A stretch of DNA of 32,912 bases from contig WRJC01000032.1 in assembly GCA_009782405.1 (NCBI GenBank), forward strand, positions 1 through 32,912, written 5' to 3'. Numbering within the stretch: the first letter of the stretch is position 1; each line of letters opens with the position of its first letter. Shown here one piece after another: positions 6,220 through 31,112 of the stretch. This stretch comes from Oscillospiraceae bacterium (lineage in GTDB: Bacteria > Bacillota_A > Clostridia > Oscillospirales > WRJC01). Position numbers and translations under genes: made by a program. The notes beneath the pieces were generated by a model, which ran no database searches, had not been told where the DNA came from, and was given only the letters and a program-made list of their open reading frames with translations.

Positions 6220-6494
6220 CAATCCACCTCCGACCTTATCATCTTCTCCTGTTCAAAACGGCTTAGCTCAAACAACAGGGAATACAGCGCATTTACAGAC
6301 GATTTGCGCCCTTCTCCCGCTTTGCGGGATATATTTCCGAGTATCTCCTGCTCGCGAACCGGGTCATATATCGGTATATTATGCCGCCGTTTGTACCGCG
6401 CGATTTCAACGGAAACATCCATCCGCTGCTCGAACAGGCGAATCAGTTCATCGTCGATTTTGTTGATTTGGGACCGCAAATCCTGTAAATCCAT
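6219..6494 (-). CDS. Chorismate mutase, AroQ class (monofunctional)
   Basis: A 91-residue all-helical AroQ-class chorismate mutase (EC 5.4.99.5), converting chorismate to prephenate. It shows the typical LRSQINKIDDELIRLFEQRM helix, an IARYKRRHNIPIYDPVREQEIL segment (conserved Arg/Lys and the D-x-x-R-E pattern) and a short C-terminal helix. No prephenate dehydratase or dehydrogenase domain is attached. It lies 21 bp after aroC, with AAAGGA before the ATG. With tyrA upstream it commits this operon to tyrosine; no pheA is present in the window. Confidence 0.93.
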   Translation of the reverse strand: MDLQDLRSQINKIDDELIRLFEQRMDVSVEIARYKRRHNIPIYDPVREQEILGNISRKAGEGRKSSVNALYSLLFELSRFEQEKMIRSEVD

Positions 6495-11819: not shown

Positions 11820-11854
11820 AAAAGCCCCTGAGCAAAGTTAGGATTTGCTCAGGG
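11820..11854 (-). terminator. Regulated intrinsic terminator of the T-box leader
   Basis: CCCTGAGCAAA (minus strand, 11844-11854) pairs perfectly over 11 bp with TTTGCTCAGGG (11826-11836), followed by GCTTTTT. It sits about 15 nt downstream of the T-box motif and 39 nt before the DAHP synthase start. Confidence 0.9.
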
Positions 11855-12048
11855 ACGAAAACAGACATTTCCGCGGTACCACCCTGATTACGGCCAAATA
11901 CAGCCGTCGCTTATCGGGATCAAAAAATCCCTGCCCCTATTACGGTGGGCGTTCCGTATGCCCCTACGAATTTTTCAGAGCATCGGCTCAGGAGTGTATT
12001 TACATACCCTATCAGCGACTGCTTGCACCAACCGCAGTATCTCTGGCC

Positions 12049-12063
12049 GCCGGCTCCGCCGGC
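12049..12063. repeat. GC-rich palindrome within T-box stem I
   Basis: GCCGGC, 3-nt spacer, GCCGGC forms a short perfect hairpin on the 5' side of stem I. It looks like an extra arm inserted between the TACCCT helix and the distal hairpin. Confidence 0.5.
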
Positions 12064-12094
12064 TATATGCTGAGTGAGGGTATCTTTCTCTCCG

Positions 12095-13580: not shown

Positions 13581-14363
13581 ATGGAAAAAATTTTTGAAAC
13601 GGCAAAACGCAGCCCTTTGTGGGAGGGCATCGCGCACGATGATTTCGAGCGCGCATTGAATTGCCTGTCCGCAAAAACAGCGGGCTACAAAAAAGACGAC
13701 GTGATTATGCTGTCGGGCGATATTGCAAACTTTGTGGGATTGGTTTTGGCGGGCGGGGTGCAGATCATAAAAGAGGACATGGACGGAAAGACAACTATAA
13801 TAACCGAACTGGGCGTTCCGGAACTTTTCGGCGAAACATTCGCCTGCGCAGAAATAACGCGAAGCCCTGTCACCGTATTGGCAAAAGAAGATACTGAAAT
13901 TTTGCTCTTGGACTACAAAAAAATCATCATGTCCTGCACTTCCGCTTGCATATTCCACGCAAAATTGATAGAAAATATGCTTAAAATCATTTCCCATAAA
14001 AACCTGATGCTAAACCAAAAAATCGAAATCCTCTCCAAACGGACGACGCGGGAGAAATTGCTTGCGTTTTTTGAAACCCAGAGGGGGACGGCAAAAAAAT
14101 TCACCATTTCCTACAACCGGGAGGAATTGGCGCAATACCTCAAAATCGAAATCCTCTCCAAACGGACGACGCGGGAGAAATTGCTTGCGTTTTTTGAAAC
14201 CCAGAGGGGGACGGCAAAAAAATTCACCATTTCCTACAACCGGGAGGAATTGGCGCAATACCTCTGCGTCGACCGCAGCGCGATGTCAAGCGAGCTTTGC
14301 AGAATGCGCGACGAGGGTCTGATAAAGTTTCACAAAAGCACGTTTGAAATTTGCAAAATGTGA
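13581..14363 (+). CDS. Crp/Fnr-family regulator with internal perfect tandem duplication
   Basis: A 260-residue regulator of the Crp/Fnr family. The N-terminal cyclic-nucleotide-binding-like beta roll (residues ~10-130) is followed by a dimerisation helix and a winged-helix domain ending CVDRSAMSSELCRMRDEGLIKFHKSTF. A 41-residue segment (KIEILSKRTTREKLL... to ELAQYL) occurs twice in tandem, encoded by two identical 123-bp copies (14019-14141, 14142-14264). Without one copy the protein would be 219 residues, the normal family length. The extra copy splits the HTH from the linker helix in one repeat but leaves a complete HTH after the second. No Fnr-type N-terminal Cys cluster is evident. Weak ribosome binding site. 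Confidence 0.88.
   Translation: MEKIFETAKRSPLWEGIAHDDFERALNCLSAKTAGYKKDDVIMLSGDIANFVGLVLAGGVQIIKEDMDGKTTIITELGVPELFGETFACAEITRSPVTVLAKEDTEILLLDYKKIIMSCTSACIFHAKLIENMLKIISHKNLMLNQKIEILSKRTTREKLLAFFETQRGTAKKFTISYNREELAQYLKIEILSKRTTREKLLAFFETQRGTAKKFTISYNREELAQYLCVDRSAMSSELCRMRDEGLIKFHKSTFEICKM
14019..14264 (+). repeat. Perfect 2 x 123-bp in-frame tandem duplication
   Basis: Copy 1 14019-14141 and copy 2 14142-14264 are identical by direct comparison, including the A7 and T6 runs. The unit is 41 codons, so the reading frame is kept. Confidence 0.97.
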
Positions 14364-16656: not shown

Positions 16657-19155
16657 TTACTGCACACGGACTATGTGATACGGCAAAGCGTGCTGCGGAT
16701 GCCAAATCCCCGGGTAAATAATACCGTCGCCTTCATGCGAAACGGCTTCAAAATACACAAGCAAATCCCATTCCGGCGTAATATAATTTCCCGGTATCTC
16801 GCCATGCCATGCGCCGTTTGAATACACAAGTTCGCCTGACAAAAACGCGCCCTCAAGCTGATTTGTATGACGGTAACGCACTCTCACATTCCCACGGAAA
16901 CCGTCCTGTGCGCATAATTCGAGCGTCACAGGCAAATCTTTGCCGGACGGACAATTTTTCGGGAGATTATCACTCCACGCGGGAGGAGAAATCCGTGCGG
17001 TTGGCATATGTATTTCATCAAACGGTAACGGTGCATCTTCAGCAATTTCTTTCAGTTTGGCAATATCCGCGCCTATCTCGGGAAAATAATCGCTCCATGT
17101 ACCCGTGCGGTATTTTCCCCCGCCTACCATAAAAACTAAATTTTTGTGGTATGCCTTTCCAAGTTCGGCAAGCGAGTTCCAATGTGCCCGCGTGTTTTTC
17201 ATATATTCAAGACTTGTGAATGCGTATCCTTTGCGTTTTCTTATTTCGCAAAGGCATAAAAATATTGCGGCGGCAATTTTATTTCTGTGATACAGCGCAA
17301 GTTCGCGCAGCATCATCAAATCAAGTTCCAATCCTCGAGCTTCAGGCCTGTCCGGCAATCCCAAACTACGAGCCTGTTCGAGATATTTTTGCGTATTGTT
17401 CGCCATGCTTTCAAGCCATGCCATGCGCTGATACGGCGTGTAACGCCCGTCCTCTCGGCTTTCAAGCGCGTCGCGTACATAATCTTCTATCGGATAAAAA
17501 AGCCCTGCGTCGGACGGTTCGGTATTCTGATAAGTAACGCATGAGTGTTTGAACGCCCGATTGTGATTATGTTCGGCGAACAACGCCGCTCCCGTAGATA
17601 ATTCCGCCCAGTAGTGCAGCTGCGGGTGAACGGGCATATGCGAAGCGACGATAAACGGCACGATACGGCTTGCCACGGAAACAGCCGCAAGAAGCGGGTC
17701 AGCCGCCGCTCCGAAATGCTGTTTCATCGGTCTCAGCCATGCTTCGCCGACTTCTCTCAAATCATATCCGATACGCCCGAATAACCGCCAAAAGAGCCAA
17801 TAACGTTCGTCTTCATATTTGCCAAAACGCATTTTCGGGTCGTCGAAAATATGCCAGCCCGTATACATCATGTCCTGTGCGCCGCCTTTTAAAGATAACG
17901 GCGGCATCAATTCAAACCCCACAGCGTCGCCAAGTTCAAGGCTCGCTATAAAGCGCCGGACATAATCGGGGTCGCCCCATGTAAATAAATCCGTGGAGCC
18001 GTCGTTCCACAGACGATATAAAAAGTCGTGGAGGCGCGGCTTTTTGTGCATGTCCGCGTAACTGTACCTACGCGAGTGATTCAGGTTTTCAAACCGTTTC
18101 AATTCTTCTGTACGCATACGCGTAAGATGATAGGGCAAGCCTGCCTGTTCGCACCAATATTTAGTCGATACGGTGAGTTCAAAACCCTGTTCTTTCGCGT
18201 AAGCTATCATGTTATCCGTCAGACCTTTCGCTCGTAAATCGAGTTTGACTTTGCGCCCTGTATCTTTCGCGTCCGCCAATCCGTCAATCATTCTGCACCA
18301 GAAATCCTCCGCCGTGATATGCGTTCCGACACCCGATTCGTGATTTACCCTGAACTGTATCATATCTATTTCAGGGCATTGCAGTGCAAGTTCGCGTATT
18401 CCTGCGGCGCAATACGCGGAAAGATTATCGGCGTCAATGCCTTCAACCATAGCGGTTTGATCGGACGTCCACAGCGACTGCTGCCATGTGGCGAATACAA
18501 ATTCCATTCCATATTCGTGAACGAGCCGGCCTAATTTACGAAGTGCGTCAAGATGTACGGTACGGTTAAGTCCCGGCGTTATGACTTTTACGCCGGGATA
18601 TTCAGGGACATCGACAAAGAACGGATACGGCGGGGAGAGATACGGCGTATCAAATCCCACGAGCAAAACAAGCCTGTTGAAACGCACCGCGAGCAATTCT
18701 TCAAGATACCAGCGCCAATATTTTTCGTCCATCCACCACTCGCAGTCGCCGGTGTTGGCGATCAGCCGATCCATGCCGCGTATTTTCGTGTGCGGCGATT
18801 GATTCAGGCCTTCGAGTTTGTCCAACGCCCGTTCGCCGCAACTTTCCACGCGCTCCGCCATTTCCATTAAAGCGTAGGCGAGCCCGCGTTCGTCGCTGCC
18901 GGAAATAACGCGGGCCGCCCCGAAAGACATAAACTGCACGCTTTCGGGTGCGGTCAGTTTATCGCGAAGAAGATTGCCCGCGAGCGCGTCGGTATTTTTC
19001 GCGGCGATAATTATGCGTTCAGGCAATTCTCCCGTCCATGTTATACGTTTTTCAAAAGCTATTCCGGCTTGTTCAAGCGCATTTGTGAACCGTTTCATCG
19101 CTATACCGGAAACTTGGTCCGGCGTCGTGCGGTCAACCAATATCCATGTTTTCAT
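16657..19155 (-). CDS. Large glycoside hydrolase-like protein (GH67N/GH20b-type N-terminal domain)
   Basis: An 832-residue cytosolic protein. Residues about 1-115 look like the GH67/GH20 N-terminal domain (IIIAAKNTDALAG... and ISGSDERGLAYALMEMAERVE, the S-x-R-G-L-x-Y-x-x-x-E helix). A TIM-barrel-like central region follows (LLAVRFNRLVLLVGFDTPY, GMEFVFATWQQSLW, DMIQFRVNHESGVG, FELTVSTKYWCEQAG, DLFTWGDPDY). The C-terminal ~200 residues include a helical part and a beta-rich end. No signal peptide. I cannot assign an exact GH family or catalytic residues; the E in RVNHESGVG is a candidate. GAAGGA upstream of the ATG. It lies 48 bp after the GH-A clan gene, likely one operon. Confidence 0.7.
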   Translation of the reverse strand: MKTWILVDRTTPDQVSGIAMKRFTNALEQAGIAFEKRITWTGELPERIIIAAKNTDALAGNLLRDKLTAPESVQFMSFGAARVISGSDERGLAYALMEMAERVESCGERALDKLEGLNQSPHTKIRGMDRLIANTGDCEWWMDEKYWRWYLEELLAVRFNRLVLLVGFDTPYLSPPYPFFVDVPEYPGVKVITPGLNRTVHLDALRKLGRLVHEYGMEFVFATWQQSLWTSDQTAMVEGIDADNLSAYCAAGIRELALQCPEIDMIQFRVNHESGVGTHITAEDFWCRMIDGLADAKDTGRKVKLDLRAKGLTDNMIAYAKEQGFELTVSTKYWCEQAGLPYHLTRMRTEELKRFENLNHSRRYSYADMHKKPRLHDFLYRLWNDGSTDLFTWGDPDYVRRFIASLELGDAVGFELMPPLSLKGGAQDMMYTGWHIFDDPKMRFGKYEDERYWLFWRLFGRIGYDLREVGEAWLRPMKQHFGAAADPLLAAVSVASRIVPFIVASHMPVHPQLHYWAELSTGAALFAEHNHNRAFKHSCVTYQNTEPSDAGLFYPIEDYVRDALESREDGRYTPYQRMAWLESMANNTQKYLEQARSLGLPDRPEARGLELDLMMLRELALYHRNKIAAAIFLCLCEIRKRKGYAFTSLEYMKNTRAHWNSLAELGKAYHKNLVFMVGGGKYRTGTWSDYFPEIGADIAKLKEIAEDAPLPFDEIHMPTARISPPAWSDNLPKNCPSGKDLPVTLELCAQDGFRGNVRVRYRHTNQLEGAFLSGELVYSNGAWHGEIPGNYITPEWDLLVYFEAVSHEGDGIIYPGIWHPQHALPYHIVRVQ

Positions 19156-19203
19156 TTAACATATTCCTTCATACCCAATTATGCTTCTCCTGGTCGATTT
19201 TTT

Positions 19204-20232
19204 TTAAAAACACGATTTTATTCCGTCTTTAAGCGCGTAGTAGGCGGGTTTGGGTTTTTGCCCGCAGTCGACGCAGCCCCATGCGCATTCCGCCGGGCAA
19301 TCCGCTTCGCCGCACTGCCAGCATTGCGCCGTGTCGCTCCACCTGAAAAAGAAATTGCCGATGACATCGGGGTGCTCCGCGAAAACGGGAAGGCATTCGC
19401 TGACATACCGCGCCTGTTCTTCCGGCGTATGTCCCATGCCCCAGGTCATCGTCCAGTATTTGTGGCGGCATACATCTTGGTTGTAGTGGTTTTTGCGCTC
19501 GATGTCCGTGTATTTTTGCCCCCATTGCAGCGACGAGAAACCCCATTCGTTTATTATGATCGGCTTGCCTGACAATTTCGCGGTTTCGTCGATATACGGT
19601 TTCCACGAATGCGGCCCGCCCTGCTGCCAGGAACCCATATAGCCGTCAATTCCCAAGTAAGAAAACGGCGAATCGGGCACGGCGTACATTTCGCCCATGA
19701 GCATACGGGCGTAGTCGTTTATATATCCGAGGTTTATTCCGCACCGGGCTTCAGGGTTGCCGCTTATCACGCCCCTTGCCGCGTTGAGCAAAAACCTGAC
19801 ATTGTCTTTTTTCGACAGCGGGCCGTAAAATATTTCTATGTCCGGCTCGTTGGCGATTTGCCACCATGTGACGCGGCCTTTCGTGTATTCGCCGACAAAC
19901 GCCGCAGCTTCAAACAGCAGCTTTTGATAGCGGTCTTCCGACGGGTCGCCCAAATACCGGGACACTGCGCGCGAATAGACCGTTTTCCCCTCCTCCGGAA
20001 CATAGCGCATCGAGCCCGGCCCGGTAAAGGAACAGAGGATCTCAAATCCCTCCGAGCGGAATTTTTCGATTTGTCTGTCCGCGTTCAAAAAGTTTTTTGA
20101 GAGCGTGCCTTTTTCGTCGCCAAACGGGAACGGGTACCCCTGCCGCACCCATTTTACGCCGAGCTCGCGCATGAGCGCGAAATCGGGGCTGCCGTGCGCC
20201 GGGGTTATGCCTTTCATGTGGTTTTGTTTCAT
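19204..20232 (-). CDS. Clan GH-A glycoside hydrolase-like protein
   Basis: A 342-residue TIM-barrel hydrolase of clan GH-A (GH5/GH39/GH53-like). The acid/base Glu is in IANEPD (residue 129) and the nucleophile Glu in IINEWGFSS (residue 229), about 100 residues apart as expected. An aromatic WQIANEPDIEIFYGPLSK region follows strand 4. The tail is Cys-rich (CWQCGEADCPAECAWGCVDCG) before the PKPAYYALK end that closes many such barrels. No signal peptide. Start 20232 (MKQNHMKG) chosen for a GGGGA site upstream. Substrate unknown; a beta-linked plant or host glycan is a guess. Confidence 0.8.
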   Translation of the reverse strand: MKQNHMKGITPAHGSPDFALMRELGVKWVRQGYPFPFGDEKGTLSKNFLNADRQIEKFRSEGFEILCSFTGPGSMRYVPEEGKTVYSRAVSRYLGDPSEDRYQKLLFEAAAFVGEYTKGRVTWWQIANEPDIEIFYGPLSKKDNVRFLLNAARGVISGNPEARCGINLGYINDYARMLMGEMYAVPDSPFSYLGIDGYMGSWQQGGPHSWKPYIDETAKLSGKPIIINEWGFSSLQWGQKYTDIERKNHYNQDVCRHKYWTMTWGMGHTPEEQARYVSECLPVFAEHPDVIGNFFFRWSDTAQCWQCGEADCPAECAWGCVDCGQKPKPAYYALKDGIKSCF

Positions 20233-20267
20233 GTGGATTCCCCTTTCTTTTTGTTTATAACAAAACA

Positions 20268-20284
20268 TTGAAAACGGTTTTTAA
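20268..20284. promoter_or_regulatory. LacI/CcpA-type operator-like palindrome
   Basis: TTGAAAAC, G, GTTTTTAA: one mismatch from a perfect dyad, and one mismatch from the cre pattern WTGNAANCGNWNNCW. It lies in the divergent gap between the GH-A clan gene and the lipoprotein gene. No matching regulator gene is in the window. Confidence 0.4.
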
Positions 20285-20360
20285 TTTTTGTGAAATTCTG
20301 TTTATATATCCCCCCATAGGCCAAAGGTGCCAAAAACGGCGAAAAAGTTACAATTTACGC

Positions 20361-20389
20361 TTGAAAAGCCCGGAATATGGTGGTAAAAT
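20361..20389 (+). promoter_or_regulatory. Sigma-A-like promoter of lipoprotein gene
   Basis: TTGAAA (20361-20366), 17-nt spacer, TAAAAT (20384-20389), 35 nt before the ATG at 20424. Confidence 0.55.
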
Positions 20390-20423
20390 GGAAAGCGAAA
20401 AACCAAAGAAGGAGGCCAAACAA

Positions 20424-20948
20424 ATGAAGAAAACATTTATTTTACTGTTCGCTGTTTTTTTCGCGCTGTCGCTGTTTTCCTGCGGCGCCGAAGCGGGCAA
20501 ATCGACAGATCTCGCGGGGAGCTGGCTCTGCGAAACCCAAAGCGCCCACGGCTATGCCTCGTATTATTGGAGCTTTGGGGCGGACGGCCGCTTTGCCTGC
20601 TATTTTGCCGGCTTCGAGTCCCCTTTGGGCGATGTCCCGCATTCCATGAGCGAAAATTTCATGACAGGAAAGTTTCGCGAAAACGGAGGAACCGTCGAAT
20701 GCAGCGAGGTGCATATCGATTCATGCTTTGAATTCGGAGGCGAGTGGCGGTATTTCGAAAAAAGGGAGCCCGCCGAAATCGCCGATATGCTTTTGAAAAC
20801 GCCCCTGACAGAATCGGAGGGCGCCGACGATTTCTCATTTGAGTTCGAACTAAAAAACGCCGCGACTCTGCGCATCGCCATCGACCGCGGCGTCCCCCCC
20901 TATCAGTATGACATGGATTTCGAATATATCGATGCCAAAACCGATTGA
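20424..20948 (+). CDS. Small lipoprotein, function unknown
   Basis: A 174-residue predicted lipoprotein: signal peptide MKKTFILLFAVFFALSLFSC with an LFSC lipobox. The mature part begins GAEAGKSTDLAGSWLCETQ..., a 'G-x-W' start reminiscent of lipocalin-like or DUF-type beta-barrel lipoproteins (GSWLCETQ ... WSFGADGRFACYF ... GKFRENGGTVECSEV). No family was assigned. AAGGAGG lies 9 nt before the ATG; the longer in-frame start at 20268 overlaps the regulatory region and is not supported. Confidence 0.7.
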   Translation: MKKTFILLFAVFFALSLFSCGAEAGKSTDLAGSWLCETQSAHGYASYYWSFGADGRFACYFAGFESPLGDVPHSMSENFMTGKFRENGGTVECSEVHIDSCFEFGGEWRYFEKREPAEIADMLLKTPLTESEGADDFSFEFELKNAATLRIAIDRGVPPYQYDMDFEYIDAKTD

Positions 20949-21168
20949 CAGCTTCCTCCGCCTTTTAAATTGCTATGTTTTCCTCTTTCGCGTATTTTCG
21001 CATATACGCCGCCACTTTTCTAAAATTCAACCATTTATTTAATTATGTATAGCATTATATCATAAAAATATATTTCAATTGTAAACTTTTTGGTCTATCC
21101 TGACAAAATTATGATATAATAAATACATGAATGACAATTTTGACATTAATTAACAAGGTGGTTTTGAC

Positions 21169-21684
21169 ATGGTAAAATTGGAGAAATTCGAAATCGTAAA
21201 ATTCGGTCCCTACAGATTCATAGGCAAATCCGTGTATGCGCGCTGCGGGCAATCCCCTTATATATTCGGCGGATTGTGGGGCAACGACGAATGGATTTTC
21301 AAAAAATTGAACACTATGAAGGAATATGCTACCGCTGAAAATGACGATGTCGGATTTATGACCCGCGACAAGTATGATGAGCAAAAAAAGTTACTTGGAT
21401 ATACCGTCGGCAGATTCATGAAAGCAGATACCCCTGTTCCCGCCGAATTGGTGGGAACCGATTATGAAATGGACTATTTTGATATTCCCGCCATGTATGT
21501 GGCCAAGGGATTTGTGAGCAAAGATGTAGATGCCTGGCAATATGTGCAAAGGCTGACCCACGAAGCGATCGGGCAACAGGCAAAATACATCGCAACGGAT
21601 GAATTTTGCGCCGAAATCTATGTCAACCCAAACGTCGACGCAAGTTCCTTTTATGGGTATTACGTCAGCGTCAAGGAAAAATAG
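21169..21684 (+). CDS. GyrI-like small-molecule-binding domain protein
   Basis: A 171-residue stand-alone effector-binding domain of the GyrI/AraC-effector type. Features are the N-terminal KFEIVKFGPYRFIGKSVYAR strand, a FMKADTPVPAEL segment, the PAMYVAKGFVSKD strand and a C-terminal AEIYVNP...SSFYGYYVSVK strand. Such proteins bind hydrophobic or cationic small molecules; some act as hydrolases or as drug sequestration proteins. No DNA-binding domain is attached. AAGGTGG precedes the ATG, and a TATAAT-containing AT-rich stretch lies near 21115. Confidence 0.8.
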   Translation: MVKLEKFEIVKFGPYRFIGKSVYARCGQSPYIFGGLWGNDEWIFKKLNTMKEYATAENDDVGFMTRDKYDEQKKLLGYTVGRFMKADTPVPAELVGTDYEMDYFDIPAMYVAKGFVSKDVDAWQYVQRLTHEAIGQQAKYIATDEFCAEIYVNPNVDASSFYGYYVSVKEK

Positions 21685-21809
21685 CCGTCAAAAAACGCCG
21701 TCCCGGACATTTCGTCTACCGCATATTTCGCGCTTTGTCAAGCCCCGGCGCAAAAAACATTGACATTGCGGAGAATATGCGGTATACTATGTCGGAGGGG
21801 TGATTTAAA

Positions 21810-22250
21810 ATGAGCGAAAGAGAAGAAAAGGCGACAAATCTGTTTTCTAAAGGATACAACTGCGCCCAATCCGTTTTAGGCGCGTATTGCGAAAAATCGG
21901 GGCTGAACCCGGATACCGCGCTAAAACTCGCCAACGGGTTTGGAGGCGGCGCGCGCTGCGGCGAGCTTTGCGGGGCCGTGTCCGGCGCGATAATGGCCAT
22001 CGGCCTGAAATGCGGGTTTTGCGTCGAGGGGGATCTCGCGCAAAAAGGATACTGCAACAAAAAGACATATGAATTCATGGAAAAGTTCAAGGAAAAAAAC
22101 GGCTCAGCACTTTGCCGCGATTTGTTGGGCATCGACATACGCCATCCGGACGACCACAACGCGCCGGCCGCGAAAGAAGCCCACAGAACCATATGCCCGG
22201 AGCTGGTGGCTTCGGCTGTGCGCATATTGGAAACCATGGATTTTTTATGA
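21810..22250 (+). CDS. C_GCAxxG_C_C family redox protein
   Basis: A 146-residue protein of the C_GCAxxG_C_C family. The defining motif YNCAQSVLGAYC is followed by GGGARCGELCGAVSGAIMAIGLKCG and later Cys (SALCRDLLG, TICPELV). The family is common in strict anaerobes and believed to be redox active or metal binding, often next to ferredoxins or oxidoreductases. GGAGGGG precedes the ATG. It follows the GyrI-like gene by 125 bp on the same strand and ends at a structured hairpin element. Confidence 0.9.
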   Translation: MSEREEKATNLFSKGYNCAQSVLGAYCEKSGLNPDTALKLANGFGGGARCGELCGAVSGAIMAIGLKCGFCVEGDLAQKGYCNKKTYEFMEKFKEKNGSALCRDLLGIDIRHPDDHNAPAAKEAHRTICPELVASAVRILETMDFL

Positions 22251-22252
22251 AT

Positions 22253-22319
22253 AACCCGAAAAGAGGTTAGTTCCCATTTTGGGAACTAACCTCGAACAGT
22301 TGTTCATTTCGGGTTTTTT
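22253..22319 (+). terminator. Three-way-junction hairpin ending in a T-tract
   Basis: Outer stem AACCCGAAA (22253-22261) with TTTCGGGTT (22307-22315), followed by T6. Inside are two hairpins: a perfect 13-bp stem (GAGGTTAGTTCCC 22263-22275 with GGGAACTAACCTC 22281-22293) and GAACA/TGTTC (22294-22305). It lies between convergent genes and overlaps the last codons of the MBL gene. It probably terminates plus-strand transcription; the branched form is unusual. Confidence 0.75.
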
Positions 22320-22939
22320 GGCATATACAGGCCGTAGTGGGAGGTCAACACGATTTCGCTGCCTTTCATGGTTTCGCCGAGTTTTTCTATGGATTCCCCG
22401 GCGGTTTTTTTATCCATGGTGAAAGGGTGAATCTGCGGGCCACCGCTGCCAAGCCCGAATGCGTCGCCGGTGAACAGATATTTTCCGTCGACAAGATAGG
22501 CCATCGAGCCGGGCGTGTGCCCGGGAGCCTTGATGCATTCGATCGCGCGGTCGCCAAGACTCAGCTTTTGCCCGTCCCCGACCAGGCCCGCGCTACCCGG
22601 CGCCATTCCGCCCGGCAGCGCGTTATAGCCCAAAAGCGGGCTGCGCTTCGCGGTGCCGTCGATCATTTGGGCTTCGTCTTCGCCCATGTAAATTTTGGCC
22701 CGGGCGAAAATTGCCAGCGCCGCCGTATGGTCGTAATCGGAATGGGTCAAAAAAACAGATTTCACTTCGGGCAGGCCGATTTCAAATTCGGCCAGCCTTT
22801 TTTTTGCCGTGTTCGCATTCGAACCCGCGTCGATTGCGATATAGCCGTCGCTTGCCTTTATTACATACAGGCAGTTTCTTTGATTTTGGATCGCATATAT
22901 TCCGGTTTCAAAGATTTCGCCGGATTTCGCGGGTTTCAT
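22304..22939 (-). CDS. Metallo-beta-lactamase-fold hydrolase with variant metal motif
   Basis: A 211-residue MBL-fold protein. The fold is clear from AIQNQRNCLYVIKASDGYIAIDAGSN, the motif THSDYDHTAAL, the later His in APGHTPGSMAYLV, the Asp in LFTGDAFG, and SHYG near the end. The metal motif is H-S-D-Y-D-H instead of H-x-H-x-D-H: the second His is Asp. ATG 22939 is the first ATG but has no clear ribosome binding site; TTG starts at 22963 or 22981 with a GGGGGG stretch nearby are possible. Substrate unknown (thioester or lactone hydrolases are relatives). Confidence 0.85.
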   Translation of the reverse strand: MKPAKSGEIFETGIYAIQNQRNCLYVIKASDGYIAIDAGSNANTAKKRLAEFEIGLPEVKSVFLTHSDYDHTAALAIFARAKIYMGEDEAQMIDGTAKRSPLLGYNALPGGMAPGSAGLVGDGQKLSLGDRAIECIKAPGHTPGSMAYLVDGKYLFTGDAFGLGSGGPQIHPFTMDKKTAGESIEKLGETMKGSEIVLTSHYGLYMPKNPK

Positions 22940-23016
22940 CGCCAATATGGAAAATATTCCCAAATTTATCCCCCCAAGCAAATATAGTTTATGCCATTAT
23001 ACCACATTTTCGCATT

Positions 23017-23033
23017 TTTTGCAAATGGCAAAA
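23017..23033. promoter_or_regulatory. Inverted repeat upstream of the glycosidase operon
   Basis: TTTTGC (23017-23022), 5-nt spacer, GCAAAA (23028-23033): a perfect dyad just upstream of the -35 box (23040). Candidate operator for a sugar regulator. Confidence 0.35.
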
Positions 23034-23039
23034 TTTATA

Positions 23040-23068
23040 TTGCAAAAATAATCAAGGCATGATACAAT
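23040..23068 (+). promoter_or_regulatory. Sigma-A-like promoter of the glycosidase operon
   Basis: TTGCAA (23040-23045), 17-nt spacer, TACAAT (23063-23068), 50 nt before the GH5-like start at 23118. Confidence 0.55.
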
Positions 23069-23117
23069 ATATGGTAAAGGTAAAATCGGCTTCGGCGTAA
23101 AAAAGGAGGCGTATAAT

Positions 23118-24395
23118 ATGCAGGGCATAATTCAAATAAACGGCGAAAAGACGGGATTTGCCGACGGCGCAAGCGGCAAAGCGTATGTGCCGGTCGGCGT
23201 CAATTACTACGACCACGAAACGGGCTGGGCGCCGCAGATCTGGAAAATGTTCGATGAGGACAGGGTTAAACGCCAATTCGAGGCGATGAAGGAGCAGGGA
23301 ATGAACGCCGCGCGGTTTTTCATGGCGAGCACCGCCTTCATGCCCAAAAAAAACAAAATCGACATGGCCGCCGTGGAAAAATTCGACAAGTTCATCGAAT
23401 TCGCCCATGAGGCAGAAATCCGCCTGATCCCAACCGGCCCCGACCACTGGGAAGGCGTGCCGGATTATTGCAGCGCCGATATGTACTGCGGCTCCGAGGC
23501 GCTCGAGGCACTTTGCGCGTACTGGGAATTCATGGCGGGCCGATACAAAAGCGAGCCCGCGATATTCGCCTGGGATCTGCGCAATGAGCCGATGATTGCT
23601 TGGGATTCCGGACCGATGCGCGAAGGCTGGCGGAATTATTTGAAGGAAAAATACGGCAACGGCCCAAATGGGGATTTTTTGGTTCCCGAAGACGCGCCAA
23701 AGGAAAACGACAGCCGCTTGTACGACTACCAAATCTACCGGGAAAAACTCGCTTACGCCTGGACCAAAACGCAAACGGACGTAATCCGCAAGGCAAACGA
23801 CGGCCACCTTGTCACCATCGGCTATATCCAGTGGTCGTTTCCGGGGGTTTTGGCGGGGGGCAAGCCGAGCGGCTACAGCGCCTTTAGGCCATCTGCGCTC
23901 TCCAAGCTCGTCGATTTCGACTGCCCGCATTTCTACCCCACCCTCGGAGACCCGGCCGATCCGCAAAAAAAACGCGCCAACCTGAAATATCTTTGCGACT
24001 GGGTGCTTTACTGCGATTTGTCGCGGCCTGTCGTGCTCGAAGAATTCGGTTGGTACGGCGGCGGGGAGATAAACGAACATCAGCCTTACCGCACCCACGA
24101 AGACCAACTCGACTGGAACCGCGCGCTGATGGAGGAGACGATAGGGCTGTGCTCGGGCTGGCTGAACTGGCCGTTCGCGGACACCCCGTCTTCTACCGAC
24201 ATATCGAAATTTTCGGGCCTGGTCACTTCGGATTTCCGCCCCAAGCCCTGGGGGGAGGTTTTTTCGGCCTATGCAAAAGAGCTTTGCCGGGATCACGCGC
24301 CCCAAAAAAAAGAGCGCGAACAGTTCGTTTTCCCGGAGGCCGAATTTTGCCGCCTTGTGACGCGGGGCGGCGACGCGGATATGTATTTGAAGTGA
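23118..24395 (+). CDS. GH5-like glycoside hydrolase (mannanase/cellulase fold)
   Basis: A 425-residue clan GH-A hydrolase closest in pattern to GH5. Strand 1 is AYVPVGVNYYDHETGWAP; the AARFFM strand and RLIPTGPDHW follow. The acid/base Glu is in WDLRNEPM (E157) and the nucleophile in VVLEEFGWYG (E309). The VDFDCPHFYP strand carries the conserved His/Tyr, and LNWPFADTPSS closes the barrel. No signal peptide, so it acts in the cytosol. GGAGG precedes the ATG. First gene of a three-gene operon (gaps 25 and 26 bp). Substrate not determinable; beta-mannoside or beta-glucoside are the usual ones. Confidence 0.85.
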   Translation: MQGIIQINGEKTGFADGASGKAYVPVGVNYYDHETGWAPQIWKMFDEDRVKRQFEAMKEQGMNAARFFMASTAFMPKKNKIDMAAVEKFDKFIEFAHEAEIRLIPTGPDHWEGVPDYCSADMYCGSEALEALCAYWEFMAGRYKSEPAIFAWDLRNEPMIAWDSGPMREGWRNYLKEKYGNGPNGDFLVPEDAPKENDSRLYDYQIYREKLAYAWTKTQTDVIRKANDGHLVTIGYIQWSFPGVLAGGKPSGYSAFRPSALSKLVDFDCPHFYPTLGDPADPQKKRANLKYLCDWVLYCDLSRPVVLEEFGWYGGGEINEHQPYRTHEDQLDWNRALMEETIGLCSGWLNWPFADTPSSTDISKFSGLVTSDFRPKPWGEVFSAYAKELCRDHAPQKKEREQFVFPEAEFCRLVTRGGDADMYLK

Positions 24396-24420
24396 AAATA
24401 ATAAAGAGAGGAAAAATTTT

Positions 24421-26367
24421 ATGGAATGGAAAATCGAAAGGGCAGGAGGCGGCCAAACTGTCGCATTCGCGGCAGATGAGCTGCGCAAATATCTGTGTGA
24501 AATCGACCCGGAGCTAAATGTGTCGATATTGAAATCGGACAAGTCGCTCAGGCTTGAAAACACCGTGAAACTGTTGGCGGACGCATCGTTTGAAAAGCTT
24601 CCGAAACTGGACGACCCGGAGGCCGACGACGCCTACTATATTTCAGTACGCGGCAAAACGGGCGTGATCGCCGGCTCCAACGAGCGCGCCGTTCTGCTCG
24701 GCGCGTACCGCTTTTTGCATGAGCTGGGCTGCCGCTGGCTGCGCCCGGGCAAAAACGGGGAGATCATCCCCAAAAAAAGCCTGTGCGATATCGACGTGGC
24801 CTGCGCCGACGCTGCTTCCTACCGGCACAGGGGAGTATGCATCGAGGGGGCGGTATCGTTCGGGCATGTGGCGGATATGATCGACTGGCTGCCCAAGGCG
24901 GGAATGAACGCCTATTTCACCCAATTTACTACGCCCTATACGTTTTTTGACAGATGGTACAACACCGAAAACCCGTATATCGCGCCGGAGCCCGTGGATA
25001 TGGAGACGGTGCGCTCGGCGGCAAGCGCCCACGCGGAGCAGATAAAAGAGCGCGGCATGATGTACCATGCGGTGGGCCACGGCTGGACCTGCGCCCCGCT
25101 TGGACTCGAGGGCGCAAGCTGGGAATCCAAGCAGCATGAGCTGCCGCCCGAAACCCGCGAAATGCTCGCCATGATAGGCGGCAAGCGCGATTTCTATTAC
25201 GGCGTGGCGCTGAACACCAATCTCTGCTATTCCAATCCCGAGGTCCGGGAAAAGATCGCGGAGGCGATCGCCACCTACTGCAAAGGGCGCCCGGATGTGG
25301 ACTATCTGCACTTTTGGCTTGCCGACGGCGCCAACAACCACTGCGAGTGCGAAAACTGCATAGACACGCTCCCCTCGGATTATTACGTGCAGATGCTCAA
25401 CCGCATAGACGAGCTGCTCGAAAAAGAATCCGCGGCGGCCAAGATCGTGTTTTTGATTTATGTGGATCTGTTGTGGGAGCCGCAAAAGCAGCGCCTGAAT
25501 AACCCCGGCAGGTTCGTCTTGATGTTCGCGCCCATCACCCGCACATACTCCGATTCTTTCATCAATTCAAGCGATGCGGGCGATTTGCCCGAGCTTATGC
25601 CCTATGTCAGAAACAAGCTTGTGATGCCCTCGAAAGTGAGCGAAAACATCCGCCGGCTCTCAAAGTGGCAAGAGCAGTTTTCCGGGGACAGCTTTGACTT
25701 CGACTATCATCTGATGTGGGACCACATATACGATCTGGGCGGATATCACACGGCGCGGATATTGTTCGAGGATATGAAAAACCTCGACAAGATGAAGCTC
25801 AACGGCATGATGAGCTGCCAGCTGCAGCGCGCCTTCTTCCCCACCGGCCTTTCAATGTATGCGATGAGCGCCGCCCTGTGGGACAAAACCAAATCTTTCG
25901 AAGAGGTCGCCGCCAAATATTATTCGGAGGCTTTCGGGGAGCATGGGGACGAAATGCAAAAATATTTTAAAGCGCTCACCGGGCTGTGCGACACCTCGTA
26001 CCTGCGCGGGGAAAAACCGGTGGTAAACGAAGCCGCCGCAAAAAAATTCGCCCAAATACCAAAGACGGTGAACGCCATGATGCCGCGCATTTTAAGCTCT
26101 GCGCAAGAGGAAACCGAACCCTGCCGCAAAAAGCTATGGGGTTCGCTTGTGATCCACGGTCAGCTATGTTTGTACATGGCGGAAATTTACGGGAGCGTCG
26201 CTTCGGGAAATATCGAGAACCTGGATAGGCGCTGGGAGAATGTCAAGGATTATCTGCGCCGCGCGGAGCCTTCTGTCCACGAAATGTTGGACGTGCAGTT
26301 CTATATAAGCGTGGTCGGCGGGATGCTGCAAAGAAAACGCGCCGAAATCGAAAAAATCTTGAAATGA
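24421..26367 (+). CDS. DUF4838-type protein (GH20/GH67-related)
   Basis: A 648-residue protein of the DUF4838 type. Residues about 1-120 form an alpha/beta N-terminal domain as in GH20/GH67 (AADELRKYLCEIDPEL... GVIAGSNERAVLLGAYRFLHELGCRWLRPG). A barrel-like middle follows (MNAYFTQFTTPY, YHAVGHGWTC), with the HCECENC motif (Cys 308, 310, 313) and LHFWLADGANN just before it, both characteristic. A helical C-terminus (residues ~460-648) follows. Members are found in polysaccharide-degradation loci and are presumed hydrolases without a settled activity. No signal peptide. GAGAGG upstream of the ATG. Confidence 0.82.
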   Translation: MEWKIERAGGGQTVAFAADELRKYLCEIDPELNVSILKSDKSLRLENTVKLLADASFEKLPKLDDPEADDAYYISVRGKTGVIAGSNERAVLLGAYRFLHELGCRWLRPGKNGEIIPKKSLCDIDVACADAASYRHRGVCIEGAVSFGHVADMIDWLPKAGMNAYFTQFTTPYTFFDRWYNTENPYIAPEPVDMETVRSAASAHAEQIKERGMMYHAVGHGWTCAPLGLEGASWESKQHELPPETREMLAMIGGKRDFYYGVALNTNLCYSNPEVREKIAEAIATYCKGRPDVDYLHFWLADGANNHCECENCIDTLPSDYYVQMLNRIDELLEKESAAAKIVFLIYVDLLWEPQKQRLNNPGRFVLMFAPITRTYSDSFINSSDAGDLPELMPYVRNKLVMPSKVSENIRRLSKWQEQFSGDSFDFDYHLMWDHIYDLGGYHTARILFEDMKNLDKMKLNGMMSCQLQRAFFPTGLSMYAMSAALWDKTKSFEEVAAKYYSEAFGEHGDEMQKYFKALTGLCDTSYLRGEKPVVNEAAAKKFAQIPKTVNAMMPRILSSAQEETEPCRKKLWGSLVIHGQLCLYMAEIYGSVASGNIENLDRRWENVKDYLRRAEPSVHEMLDVQFYISVVGGMLQRKRAEIEKILK

Positions 26368-26393
26368 AATGAATCGAAAGGAAGGGAAAATTT

Positions 26394-28967
26394 ATGGGCG
26401 GCGATAAAAAAATGGCGTATATACCCGGGGGCACATTCACGATGGGCTCAAACAAAGGGTACGGCGAGGAGCGGCCGCTGCACAGCGTGAGCCTGCCCCC
26501 GTTTTACATGGATATCTGCCCGGTCACGAACGCCGAATTCAAAAAATACTGCGACGCGGCGGGGCGGCCATACCCCGCGGATCCGCGCTGGCCCGTCATG
26601 CGCAGCTATTTTAAAAACTACCCCGATTATCCCGTGGTGAACGTGAGCTGGGGGGAAGCCGAGGCCTACGCCAAGTGGGCGGGAAAGCGCCTGCCCTCCG
26701 AGCAGGAGTGGGAGTTCGCGGCGGCGGGCGGCTTGGATGGGCCCGCATATCCCTGGGGGGACGATTTTGGCGGAGGCGGGTGCAATTACGCAGACCGCAC
26801 AAGCGATTACCAGTGGCGCGACTTCGCGGTTTCGGACGGATTTGCCTACACTTCGCCGGTTGGAAGCTATGCGCCGAACGGCTACGGGCTGTTCGACATG
26901 GCGGGCAACGTCTGGGAGTGGACTGAGGATTGGTTTTTCGCATATGACGATCAGGTAAAAGACACCGAGCGCTTCAAGGACGGCTGGGGCGGCTCGAAGG
27001 TTTGCCGGGGGGGCAGCTACCACAACCCGCCCGGAGATTTGCGCATTTCGCGCCGCAGACAGATACTGGGCGGCGGCGGGAACATGGCGGTGGGATTTAG
27101 ATGCGTTATGGACATCGAGGGAAATGAGCACATAAAAAAAGTGGAATTTGAAATCACCGGCGAGCCCACGGAGTGGAAATCGATCCTAAAAGAAAAACAG
27201 GTAACGCTGAACCCCGGCAAAGAGCTGTGCTGCGGCATCGGCGGGGCGGATCCGGCCGAGCTGTCCCAGCTTTTTAACCTCGGATTCACCTCGGTGGAGC
27301 AGTACGTCACCTGGGAGACCTGCGAAAACGGGGGCGAGGGCAAATGGGACTTTTCGCGCTGGGATTCGGAGCTCGAAAAAATAAGGGAAGCGGGGCTGAA
27401 GTGGCTGCCCTTCGTGATCGCGGGGCCCGCCTACGCACTGCCCGACTGGTACCGCGCGGGAAAAGAACATTTGGGCCACCGCTGCCTCGAGCACAACATG
27501 GAAACCGCGATACAGTCCCACTTCGACAAAGGATTCTACGCTTACATCGAGCGTTTCATAAAAAAATTCGCTGAGCATTACGCCGACCACTCGGTCTTCG
27601 AGGGCATACTGTTTGGCATAAGCGGCGACTTCGGCGAATCGATCGTGTCCGACTGGCACGGAAACTGGCCCACGCAGATCGCGGGGCTCTATCACGCGCA
27701 CGGCGGGTATTGGTGCAACGACCCGTGTGCCAGAGCCGATTTCAAACAAAAGATGCGCGAAAAATTCGCCGCGGTCGAAAGCCTGAACGAATGCTGGGGA
27801 ACTTCGTTTGCGGGCTTTGACGATCTGGAGTTTCCGCCCCTTGAGAGCCCGCCCGAAAATCTGCGCATCGACGAGCACACACCGGCGGGGCGCTACAATG
27901 CCGACACTCCGGCAAAACGCCGCAGATGGGTGGATTTCGTGGACTGGTACAGAAACTCGATGACCGAATATGTGAAGTTTTGGATGGAGACCGCGCGAAA
28001 ATATTTCCCCGAAACCGAACTGTATATGTGCACCGGCGGCGACGCGGTGGCCTGGCACGCTGCGGAATTCGCGGCCCAGTGCAAAGCCTCGGCCTCCGTG
28101 GGCGGCGGGGTGCGCATAACTAACGAGGCCTCGAATTACGGCGCCAATTTCACAGTCACAAACTGGGTCGCCTCGGCGGGCAGCTTCTACGATGCCTATT
28201 ACAGTTTCGAGCCTGCGGGCCAGGTCACCGAGCGCGGGGCGGTTTGCCGCATATACAACGCGGCGGCCACCGGCGCGAAGGGGCTGCACTACTACAGCTC
28301 GAATGTGCTCGGCGCCAAGGCCAAATGCGAAAATTTCATAAAAAACATAGGCGCCTACAAAAATGCGCCGGTCAAAAGGGATATCGCCTATCTCTACCCC
28401 GACACGCCGATGGTGCTAAATCCCGCGAGGCGCGGCGAAAACAGCGCGGCGTGCAGCCTGCTGCGCGATTATTGCGACTATACGTTCGCCTGCGATCTGA
28501 CCATTGCCGACGGCCTGCTGCAAAAAGGCCCAAAGGCGCTGATCGTGGCCGTGGACGGCCATTACCGCGCAAAAACCCTCGAAGCGATCCGCGATTTCGT
28601 ATCTTCGGGGGGGCTGCTCGCCGGAATTGGCATAGGCGAGCTTACCGGCCTTGAAGACGGCCGCGACTGGATGCCGGAGCTGTTCGGAGGGGAAAACGCA
28701 ATACTTCTAAACAATTCCGGCTCGCCTGAAAATATCGCGGAGCTGCAAAAAAACGTGTTCGACCCGCTCACAGAGTTTCTGAATTCGCGCGGGGTAAATG
28801 TGCCCGACGGGAAAATAGACGGCATATATACGGCATCCCGGGGCGACGGCCTGTTAATTCTCGACTACACCGGCTCGCCGGAGCCAAAAGAGAGGGAATT
28901 TGTTTTGCCAAACGGCGAAATCCGCAGCCTTTCGACTGCGGACAGCGCCATTTACGAGCTGGAATGA
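26394..28967 (+). CDS. SUMF1-fold domain fused to a glycosidase-like TIM barrel
   Basis: An 857-residue two-part protein. Residues ~5-240 are an SUMF1/FGE-sulfatase-type domain: MAYIPGGTFTMGS, NAEFKKYC, VVNVSWGEAEAYAKWAGKRL, PSEQEWEFAA, AYPWGD, GLFDMAGNVWEWTEDW, CRGGSYHNPP and VGFRC. The Cys pair of true formylglycine-generating enzymes, expected after GGS, is absent. Residues ~255-860 resemble GH42/GH14-like barrels (LFNLGFTSVEQYVTW, WLPFVIAGPAYALPDWYR, ISGDFGES, GAKGLHYYSSNVLG) with a glutamine-amidotransferase-like domain late (DYTFACDLTIADGLL... IRDFVSSGGLLAGIG), as in GH42 trimerisation domains. No signal peptide. Function unknown; the fusion suggests substrate binding by the first domain. 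Confidence 0.8.
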   Translation: MGGDKKMAYIPGGTFTMGSNKGYGEERPLHSVSLPPFYMDICPVTNAEFKKYCDAAGRPYPADPRWPVMRSYFKNYPDYPVVNVSWGEAEAYAKWAGKRLPSEQEWEFAAAGGLDGPAYPWGDDFGGGGCNYADRTSDYQWRDFAVSDGFAYTSPVGSYAPNGYGLFDMAGNVWEWTEDWFFAYDDQVKDTERFKDGWGGSKVCRGGSYHNPPGDLRISRRRQILGGGGNMAVGFRCVMDIEGNEHIKKVEFEITGEPTEWKSILKEKQVTLNPGKELCCGIGGADPAELSQLFNLGFTSVEQYVTWETCENGGEGKWDFSRWDSELEKIREAGLKWLPFVIAGPAYALPDWYRAGKEHLGHRCLEHNMETAIQSHFDKGFYAYIERFIKKFAEHYADHSVFEGILFGISGDFGESIVSDWHGNWPTQIAGLYHAHGGYWCNDPCARADFKQKMREKFAAVESLNECWGTSFAGFDDLEFPPLESPPENLRIDEHTPAGRYNADTPAKRRRWVDFVDWYRNSMTEYVKFWMETARKYFPETELYMCTGGDAVAWHAAEFAAQCKASASVGGGVRITNEASNYGANFTVTNWVASAGSFYDAYYSFEPAGQVTERGAVCRIYNAAATGAKGLHYYSSNVLGAKAKCENFIKNIGAYKNAPVKRDIAYLYPDTPMVLNPARRGENSAACSLLRDYCDYTFACDLTIADGLLQKGPKALIVAVDGHYRAKTLEAIRDFVSSGGLLAGIGIGELTGLEDGRDWMPELFGGENAILLNNSGSPENIAELQKNVFDPLTEFLNSRGVNVPDGKIDGIYTASRGDGLLILDYTGSPEPKEREFVLPNGEIRSLSTADSAIYELE

Positions 28968-28970
28968 AAA

Positions 28971-29651
28971 CTATCTGGTCTTGTTGTTGGCCCAATAAAC
29001 CGCGTTGAGGATTATGTCCTGTATCTCCTTTTGGCGGTAGATGGGGTAGGTCTCGTGCCCGGGCTGGAAATAGAAAACCTTGCCGCGCCCGCGGTGGTAG
29101 GCCGCCCCGCCCCTGAAGGAGCCGCAGCCCGCGAACGCCGCGTTGAACACCAATTCGTCGGGCTGCGGTATGTCGAAGTATTCGTTGTAGCACTCCTCGA
29201 TCTCGATGTCCACCGGGTTGGGTATGCCCGCCGCGATCGGGTGGCCCGGCAGAAGCGTCCACAGCTTTTCGGCCGCGTGGCCGGGAGGGGGGATCTGCAG
29301 GCTGCACGAGCTGCCCATCAGCCGCTTGAATATTTTCGCGTAATGCGACGAATGCAGGCATATTATGCCCATGCCCCTGCCCACGACGTTTTTGTGCAGG
29401 ATCTCGACCACATCGTCGGGCACTTTTCCGTGGCCCACGTGCCCCCACCACAAAACCACGTCGATCCCGGCGAGCCGCTCCTCGGTTATGCCGCAGTTCG
29501 GATCGTCGAGCGTCGCGGTCTCGGCTGTGATGTTCGGGTCCCCGTTCAAAAATTCCGCGATTGTGTTGTGCATACCCTCGGGATAGGCCGCTTTCACGTC
29601 CTCCTGGGTCTTGTTCTGGATGTTTTCGCACCAAACCAAAGCTTTGATCAT
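28971..29651 (-). CDS. ThuA-like protein
   Basis: A 226-residue ThuA-type protein with a class I glutamine-amidotransferase-like flavodoxin fold. The core reads IKALVWCENIQNK, GIDVVLWWGHVGHGKVPDDVVEIL, VGRGMGIICLHSSHYAKIFKRLMG, VDIEIEECYNEYFDIPQPDELVF and GGAAYHRGRGKVFYFQPGHET. ThuA proteins occur in sugar catabolism loci (trehalose and others); the biochemical role is unsettled. Start 29651 (MIKALVW) chosen for a GGAGG site upstream. It is divergent from the MFS gene and convergent with the SUMF1-fusion gene, whose stop is only 3 bp away. Confidence 0.88.
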   Translation of the reverse strand: MIKALVWCENIQNKTQEDVKAAYPEGMHNTIAEFLNGDPNITAETATLDDPNCGITEERLAGIDVVLWWGHVGHGKVPDDVVEILHKNVVGRGMGIICLHSSHYAKIFKRLMGSSCSLQIPPPGHAAEKLWTLLPGHPIAAGIPNPVDIEIEECYNEYFDIPQPDELVFNAAFAGCGSFRGGAAYHRGRGKVFYFQPGHETYPIYRQKEIQDIILNAVYWANNKTR

Positions 29652-29678
29652 TGCATTATACCTCCATAAAATAAAATT

Positions 29679-29694
29679 ATTGTTTATTAACAAT
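29679..29694. promoter_or_regulatory. Palindrome in the divergent ThuA/MFS intergenic region
   Basis: ATTGTT, TATT, AACAAT: a perfect 6-bp dyad between the divergent starts at 29651 and 29736. Candidate shared operator. Confidence 0.35.
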
Positions 29695-29735
29695 TGGCAA
29701 AATGTAAAAAGAAAAACAGATAGGAAACGGCGCAT

Positions 29736-31112
29736 TTGAGAAAAACACACTTTCGCTTTGAACTGTTCGACGAGGCGGGGCTCGAGGCGCAAACGATAAA
29801 ATCGCTCAAACTCGTGATATTTGCCGTGGCTTTCGGCACAATATCCTTCAACATCAACGGCGGCGTCTCGATGACCGGATATCTGAAAGAACTCAAAGCA
29901 GACGATTTCACATTCGGGCTTTTATGCGCCATCGGGCCCTTGGCCGCCCCCGTGCAGCTTTTGGCCTCCTACATACTCGAGCGCACCCAGAGGCGCAGAT
30001 CGATGTTTTTGGCCTGCGGCATAATACAGCGAATGAGCTGGCTGCCTTTTGGCTGCGTGCCGTTTTTTGTCCCGATGAGCCAGCCCGCGCTCCGCATATG
30101 GATGGCCTCGCTGTTTCTTTTGGTTTCCGCGGCTCTCGTCCCTTTTGTGAACGTGAGCTTTTTTTCCTTAGCGGCGGACTTGGTGCCCATGAACATACGC
30201 GGCAGCTATTTTGCCGTCAGATCGCGCATCGCGACCATGTTCGGCGTGGCGGGCGGCATACTGACCGCTTGGTTTTTGGATGTGTTTTCGGGGTTTTCCA
30301 GCTACGCTTTCGTGTTCGCGCTGTCGGCCATGATGGGCACCTTGGATGTCTTATGCTTTTTTTTGGTGAAATTTCCGCCGATGGCGGCGAGGCCAAAGCG
30401 CGGCGAAAGTTTTGCCGAAATGGCCTCGGGCGTGCTCAAAAACAAAAAATACATGAAATTCGCGGTCTTCATGACGCTTTGGTTTTTTTCGTGCAGCCTG
30501 TCCTCGCCGTTCTATTTGGTGCACCTGAAAACCAACCTGCTTTTTTCCAACACCCTTGTCACCGTTTTGGTGCAGATACTGCCGAGCGTGTGCTCGATAC
30601 TCATAGTGAAGCGCTGGGGCAGGGCAATCGACGCCCACGGCAACAAAGCCGTGATGCAGCTGACAAACGGAATATTGTGCGCCGCGCCGTTTCTGTGGAT
30701 ATTCACGGCAAACAAAGCGTCGGCCGCGGTATTGGTGGTTTTTATCATGCTGCTTCAGGGATGCCTGTTCTCGGGCTTCGATATAGGGGCCAACAACATC
30801 ATGCTCGGCCACGCCCCGCAGCATAACCGCTCGATGTACATCGCCATCTATTTCATGATGACGCAGAGCTTTGGCGTGGGGCTGGGAAACGCCGCCGGCG
30901 GCTGGCTGCTCGACAACGTGTTTTCGAGGATCGAGAGCCTCGACATAGCGGTATTCGGCGCGAAAATGACACGGTACAACTATTTGTTCGCCCTAACTGC
31001 GGCTCTCAGGTTCGCAGTCGTATACATAGCGCTGCCGCGCATGATCTCCGAAGAGGGCGGCGCCCCCGTGGGCGAGCTTCTGCGCGGGATATTCCGGCGC
31101 AAAAAGAATTGA
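29736..31112 (+). CDS. MFS transporter, probable sugar/glycoside permease
   Basis: A 458-residue membrane protein with about 12 hydrophobic segments. The MFS loop 2-3 motif is reduced to an ILERTQRRRSM form; a central loop (KFPPMAARPKRGESFAEMASGVLKNKKY) separates two six-helix halves. Segments include LVIFAVAFGTISFNINGG, LLCAIGPLAAPVQLLASYIL and FALTAALRFAVVYIALP. The start is TTG at 29736: no in-frame ATG is near, a stop lies 15 nt upstream, and AGGA sits 10 nt before. It is the only transporter near the glycosidase genes, so it probably imports their substrate. Confidence 0.85.
   Translation: MRKTHFRFELFDEAGLEAQTIKSLKLVIFAVAFGTISFNINGGVSMTGYLKELKADDFTFGLLCAIGPLAAPVQLLASYILERTQRRRSMFLACGIIQRMSWLPFGCVPFFVPMSQPALRIWMASLFLLVSAALVPFVNVSFFSLAADLVPMNIRGSYFAVRSRIATMFGVAGGILTAWFLDVFSGFSSYAFVFALSAMMGTLDVLCFFLVKFPPMAARPKRGESFAEMASGVLKNKKYMKFAVFMTLWFFSCSLSSPFYLVHLKTNLLFSNTLVTVLVQILPSVCSILIVKRWGRAIDAHGNKAVMQLTNGILCAAPFLWIFTANKASAAVLVVFIMLLQGCLFSGFDIGANNIMLGHAPQHNRSMYIAIYFMMTQSFGVGLGNAAGGWLLDNVFSRIESLDIAVFGAKMTRYNYLFALTAALRFAVVYIALPRMISEEGGAPVGELLRGIFRRKKN

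Follow-up and report, generated by a model that had tools for sequence, protein, structure and literature searches.

Intracellular breakdown of imported acidic oligosaccharides has a described precedent. In Paenibacillus sp. JDR-2, as far as the accessible text of the source goes, intracellular GH67, GH10 and GH43 enzymes act with ABC transporters and regulators in aldouronate utilisation; the same text links thuAB-type operons to 3-keto-maltose (PMC4765114). The accessible part of a second paper describes Op5Man5, a termite-gut GH5 exo-mannosidase with a GH42-type trimer (PMC8233224). Here we compare with these systems a carbohydrate region of an Oscillospiraceae bacterium, located at 16657..31112 of contig WRJC01000032.1; the whole stretch analysed, 32,912 nucleotides long, is called the window. 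An original prediction made from the letters alone had read this region as one locus of enzymes without signal peptides, fed by a single MFS importer, and had set it against secreted enzymes as the norm. In view of the JDR-2 system this premise needs trimming: cytosolic glycosidases have already been described in Firmicutes, so the arrangement is an ordinary one.

The reading we tentatively prefer, at a little under an even chance, is that of two separate, adjacent cytosolic operons for glycan dismantling, a uronidase pair and an end-trimming trio, and not of one pathway. The pair on the minus strand, a GH10-like clan GH-A enzyme and a GH138/GH67-like alpha-uronidase, would take apart an imported oligosaccharide bearing uronic acid, and its acidic product would then enter sugar-acid catabolism. 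The trio on the plus strand, comprising a GH5 enzyme, a DUF4838 protein and a SUMF1-glycosidase fusion, would trim a different oligosaccharide from its ends, also after import, with the domain of the fusion that resembles formylglycine-generating enzyme (FGE) acting as a binding or assembly module and not as an oxidase. We base this reading on the similarity of the 832-aa protein to GH138 in both fold and profile, the clan GH-A signature of its partner and the dehydratase context of their relatives; on the short trio gaps with Shine-Dalgarno-like sites, the fold and invariant glutamates of the fusion, the loss of its FGE cysteine pair and the placement of fused rows on one side of one tree branch; and on the intracellular GH67, GH10 and GH43 enzymes of JDR-2.

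Gene layout and cellular location

The open reading frames (ORFs) and domains named by the original prediction are present where it placed them, as judged from the ORF list and from Pfam scores that exceed the cut-offs wherever a family matched:

16657..19155, minus strand: 832-aa protein of the GH138/GH67/GH20 fold group, a probable alpha-uronidase by sequence and modelled fold, without signal peptide
19204..20232, minus strand: 342-aa clan GH-A-like hydrolase (the ORF opens at 20268; 20232 was picked as start)
23118..24395, plus strand: 425-aa GH5-like hydrolase, first gene of the trio (PF00150, 2.4e-12; GGAGG upstream)
24421..26367, plus strand: 648-aa DUF4838 protein with a GH67/GH20-like N-terminal part and a CxCxxC motif (PF16126, 2.4e-10)
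26394..28967, plus strand: 857-aa fusion of an FGE/SUMF1 fold (residues ~1-242) with a GH14-like barrel and GH42-like further domains (~273-857)
28971..29651, minus strand: 226-aa ThuA-like protein, divergent from the MFS gene (PF06283, 1e-28; start at 29651 with GGAGG)
29652..29735, no strand: AT-rich 84-bp gap between the divergent ThuA and MFS genes
29736..31112, plus strand: 458-aa MFS transporter with a TTG start, candidate importer (PF07690, 3.9e-18)

These ~14.5 kb do not form the one unit that had been proposed. They hold the minus-strand pair, the plus-strand trio and a ThuA/MFS pair. Four other genes separate the first two of these groups: a lipoprotein-like ORF, an ORF without family name, a C_GCAxxG gene and an MBL-fold gene. 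On the minus strand the 342-aa gene precedes the 832-aa gene with a gap of 48 bp, and the trio is spaced by 25 bp (GH5/DUF4838) and 26 bp (DUF4838/fusion), with a Shine-Dalgarno-like site at each of its genes. We infer that both groups are operons. An ORF that matches Aldedh, and which we take to be proA, borders the region, and an aromatic-amino-acid operon lies further up.

Each frame in the ORF list opens at the earliest ATG, GTG or TTG that follows a stop, which leaves no further start of these kinds upstream. As a measure of export we took the highest hydropathy of any 9-residue stretch within residues 1-45, which is not a trained signal-peptide predictor. The five glycosidase-like proteins score at most 1.1, compared with 3.01 for the lipoprotein of the window used as a control, and no signal peptide appeared at corrected starts; on this point the original prediction held. 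The ThuA-like protein reaches 2.39 only within an upstream TTG extension, and its own start, the ATG at 29651, is accompanied by a GGAGG. Hidden signal peptides at alternative starts were rejected, the hydrophobic ThuA stretch lying within the AT-rich gap and outside the Pfam match. Among the 21 fused relatives listed, a hydrophobic N-terminus (2.3 to 3.4) was found in five (three Bacteroidales, two Ignavibacteria) and was missing (≤1.58) from 14 Clostridia, one Chloroflexi and one Spirochaetia. Because the 14 Clostridia proteins likewise lack it, an annotation error is an improbable cause of its absence here, and the location of the fusion seems, from these N-termini, to follow lineage, which would open the same enzyme to study on both sides of the membrane. 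At a hydropathy cut-off of 2.2, 2/60, 9/63 and 0/39 members of three families pass, some of these passes not being signal-like. The window enzymes appear to be cytosolic and suited to carbohydrates.

The minus-strand pair and the plus-strand trio

The 832-aa ORF had no Pfam match at 0.01, and profile and predicted fold place it beside GH138, GH20 and GH67, with the domain layout of GH138. Its score against the NCBIfam alpha-galacturonidase model NF049878 is 15.8 bits, below the curated cut-off of 1300. Residues E273 and E336 are invariant in 60/60 relatives, and E336 is unmatched in one of two GH138-nearer relatives. We take E294 and E361 to be the catalytic glutamates of GH138, E361 also being named in a PDB molecule title, and the GH138 enzyme BPa0997 to be an alpha-galacturonidase. 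BPa0997 (PDB 6hze, 6hzf, 6hzg) is 16% identical to the 832-aa protein, which is itself signal-less. Together, profile and modelled fold make the latter a probable alpha-uronidase. No paper on BPa0997, or on GH138 with galacturonidase and rhamnogalacturonan II, was found in a search whose scope did not extend to subscription papers.

The partner ORF (354 aa from the ORF opening) also had no Pfam match at 0.01. Its family counts 95 relatives, and its profile matches GH10 enzymes weakly (best 4.1e-5). E129 (NE129PD) and E229 (NE229W), invariant in 39/39 aligned relatives, are by these motifs the probable acid/base and nucleophile, while C255, C304, C307 and C312, also invariant in 39/39, suggest a structural metal site. 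Scans of viral contigs returned no relatives of the partner or fusion families. The pair resembles in kind the JDR-2 aldouronate cluster, as described in the accessible part of that source, in that it would combine a putative intracellular alpha-uronidase with a putative GH10-type enzyme for imported acidic oligosaccharides. The JDR-2 cluster, however, has ABC importers, whereas the window enzymes are distant relatives and no ABC importer was found among the 29 window ORF queries scanned.

Within the trio, the GH5-like protein scores 47.4 bits against PF00150 (cut-off 23.5); its closest solved chains are mainly mannanases, the best at 7.1e-7 and the others weaker. The DUF4838 protein scores 40.5 bits against PF16126 (cut-off 26.6). 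It has an N-terminal part in common with the 832-aa family (hhalign 95%, 3.6e-8) and its profile of 6 rows reaches a GH67 glucuronidase at 3.8e-4, so that by these profiles both enzymes seem to belong to one superfamily. The three cysteines of a C-x-C-x2-C motif that follows HxWxxD are kept in 6/6 aligned DUF4838 members and possibly form a metal site.

The SUMF1 part of the fusion matches PF03781 with 207.4 bits (cut-off 23.3). Its second part passes the Pfam cut-offs of both GH14 (33.3 versus 27) and GH42 (26.1 versus 21), so that it is not assigned to either; over residues 273-857 its layout is that of GH42, and the barrel aligns best to GH14. From GH42 beta-galactosidases and GH14 beta-amylases the fusion differs by its extra FGE-fold domain. 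The barrel residues E415, E578 and E606 are kept in 63/63 relatives, which is more than two candidate catalytic carboxylates. In FGE, the Cys-x4-Cys pair is presumably the copper site. This pair is kept in 0/63 fusion relatives (alignments to 6muj, 2q17 and 2aft): the corresponding stretch has no cysteine in 59/63 and one in 4/63, and a cysteine lies just ahead of it in 43 relatives, where FGE has a serine. The fusion passes the SUMF1 domain cut-off but lacks the cysteine pair of FGE, and an active FGE was rejected. Because the pair is lost, the FGE-like domain probably binds or positions, and does not oxidise.

All fused rows fall on one side of one tree branch with support 100/99, in a tree whose rows represent 43/53 loci (two were dropped as contig-edge cuts, the others were short matches or missed ORFs). 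Op5Man5 is an example of a GH42-type scaffold that bears a different catalytic family; the accessible text on it mentions no FGE domain, and it does not appear in the lists of PDB matches of the window GH5 protein or the fusion. Database entries that name the fusion mostly do so after the SUMF1 part (one such name is SUMF1/EgtB/PvdO family nonheme iron enzyme), even though the cysteine pair has been lost and it is the glycosidase barrel that holds the conserved acids. None of the papers listed for the topics SUMF1, FGE, formylglycine-generating and ThuA had a title on these enzymes. Assays of the fusion and of the GH138-like protein would give names to two families that are widespread, and would mend the annotation of the fusion.

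Relatives, transport and competing readings

No conservation of a six-family neighbourhood, whose absence the original prediction had named as refuting it, was seen among the relatives read (53 fusion or GH-part loci; 185 loci overall). A genome scan for the GH part of the fusion yielded 53 loci, of which 25 also have the FGE part; in none of the 53 was a GH5, DUF4838, ThuA, MFS, 832-aa or partner gene detected (tblastn 1e-6; stretches of 3.9 to 21.8 kb). Over all 185 loci, many of them short or overlapping, the sole co-located window genes were DUF4838 and the C_GCAxxG gene, at one place counted twice. For 60 fusion-locus neighbours, hand-picked for nearness from 242 ORFs, the families listed (25 of 109) comprise 5 ABC permease, 2 GH92, 2 GH2, 1 GH127, 1 DUF2961 and 1 Sugar_tr, an MFS-type family. 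The neighbours were called by a plain longest-ORF search, which in L010 and L021 picked an antisense frame over the fusion. In loci L017, L018, L020, L023 and L041 (Chloroflexi, Spirochaetes and one Clostridiaceae MAG), fusion relatives lie near two clusters of ~313-319 aa proteins; five members of these clusters are among the 60 scanned neighbours, and five of the 60 match ABC permeases. The fusion query matched 19/198 relatives of one fusion-bearing genome, with both parts in 2. Of 23 fusion-bearing genomes, 7 have DUF4838 (three below 1e-100), 5 have MFS relatives at ≤25% identity and none has the 832-aa family, and GH5 occurs in 1/28 genomes, weakly (4.2e-4). Conversely, among five genomes with the 832-aa family, DUF4838 is present in one (4.6e-6) and the fusion GH part in one, over residues 278-743 only.

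The ThuA-like protein scores 100.6 bits and the MFS_1 match 65.9 bits, each against a cut-off of 33.4. In contrast to the thuAB operon of the 3-keto-glycoside pathway, as given in the accessible part of PMC4765114, the window ThuA gene has no oxidoreductase partner alongside: its neighbours are the fusion and MFS genes, and none was found among the window ORFs scanned. The gap at 29652-29735 shares the 9-mer TGGCAAAAT with positions 23026-23034 upstream of GH5. This sharing is not above chance, as 24/100 shuffles reach 2, and a shared operator was rejected. In six of ten MFS loci (L132, L133, L134, L139, L140 and L142) the MFS relative adjoins a nagA-like amidohydrolase, named by NCBIfam in one of the six and by similarity to that one in the other five; a MoxR/DUF58/transglutaminase block lies on the other side in five of the six.

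The MFS protein is one candidate transporter that could import for either operon. If it imports a small oligosaccharide or glycoside intact for all six enzymes to dismantle in the cytosol, there would be a single pathway; signal-less glycosidase-like proteins, close packing, co-occurrence of MFS relatives with the 832-aa family and TGGCAAAAT upstream of both GH5 and MFS speak for it. We nevertheless regard it as distinctly improbable: the 9-mer is at chance level, and the neighbourhood is conserved neither in the 53 fusion loci nor around the 832-aa, partner, MFS and DUF4838 relatives read. Of the original interpretation, the cytosolic, carbohydrate-directed character of the enzymes is supported, and the single MFS-fed pathway is not (0/53 loci, 0/23 genomes, GH5 in 1/28). 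A less improbable alternative, still unlikely, is that the MFS protein works for the minus-strand pair alone and that a transporter elsewhere in the genome feeds the trio. When 391 genomes of this class were scanned, 5 had the 832-aa family, 64 had MFS relatives (14 below 1e-50) and 23 had partner matches (4 below 1e-50). A good MFS relative (1e-50) is present in 4/5 genomes with the 832-aa family versus 10/386 others (p 5e-6), on other contigs and at 30-35% identity; MFS and partner meet in 2 genomes (2/4 versus 12/387, p 0.007), and 832-aa protein and partner in 1 (p 0.05). In one genome the neighbours of the MFS relative include an L-rhamnose isomerase and a gene of a sugar-acid dehydratase family. 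However, these p values ignore genome kinship and concern genes on different contigs, the 1e-50 line was set after the hits were seen (at 1e-3, MFS is in 5/5 versus 59/386), no MFS relative lies beside an 832-aa gene in the loci read, and the nagA-like neighbours point to an amino sugar there.

It is about as improbable as the single pathway that these are unrelated carbohydrate genes, neighbours by chance in this lineage, each using whatever other importers bring. No conserved set was found and unrelated genes separate the units, but the gaps within pair and trio are short, and the 832-aa and DUF4838 proteins have an N-terminal part in common. For the two-operon reading, genes of the galactonate-dehydratase family (MR_MLE) near relatives of the 832-aa protein (2/6 loci) and of the partner (1/6) weakly favour a sugar-acid link of the pair; such genes occur in 1/10 MFS and 0/27 fusion loci, the contrasts with the fusion loci giving uncorrected p values of 0.028 and 0.024. 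Several points weigh against it. The dehydratases at the two 832-aa loci in question are 80% alike and perhaps reflect one event; the context comes from relatives at ~47-65% identity and was spotted among many families; and four of the six 832-aa loci showed no dehydratase, two of them having an FAD oxidoreductase, in one case with a solute-binding protein nearby. No sugar-acid dehydratase or ABC importer was found by Pfam among the 29 window queries, the neighbourhood readings leave out the closest relatives (72-88%), and we know of no activity for any of these families. As far as our searches go, which did not cover subscription papers, the enzyme families are not known to have a characterised member. 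In an unlikely but far-reaching version, nearly all parts of the system would come from such families, and its cytosolic target would be an acidic heteroglycan. The GH138-like uronidase, the clan GH-A enzyme with its cysteine cluster and the DUF4838 glycosidase would then work with an FGE-fold/GH14-GH42 hydrolase in which the formylglycine-type domain now serves to bind a sugar or a partner.

Other features of the window

Outside the carbohydrate region, a T-box leader (RF00230, 100.3 bits; 11848-12107, minus strand) lies directly upstream of the aromatic-amino-acid operon, which begins with a DAHP synthase gene (10771-11781). One ORF (4981-6222, minus strand) joins a shikimate dehydrogenase N-domain (PF08501) to a shikimate kinase (PF01202). 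A Crp/Fnr-type regulator gene (13581-14363) contains an exact 123-bp tandem duplication (100% match; 14019-14264, plus strand), which repeats 41 residues ahead of the helix-turn-helix of the regulator and is either a recent duplication or an assembly artefact.

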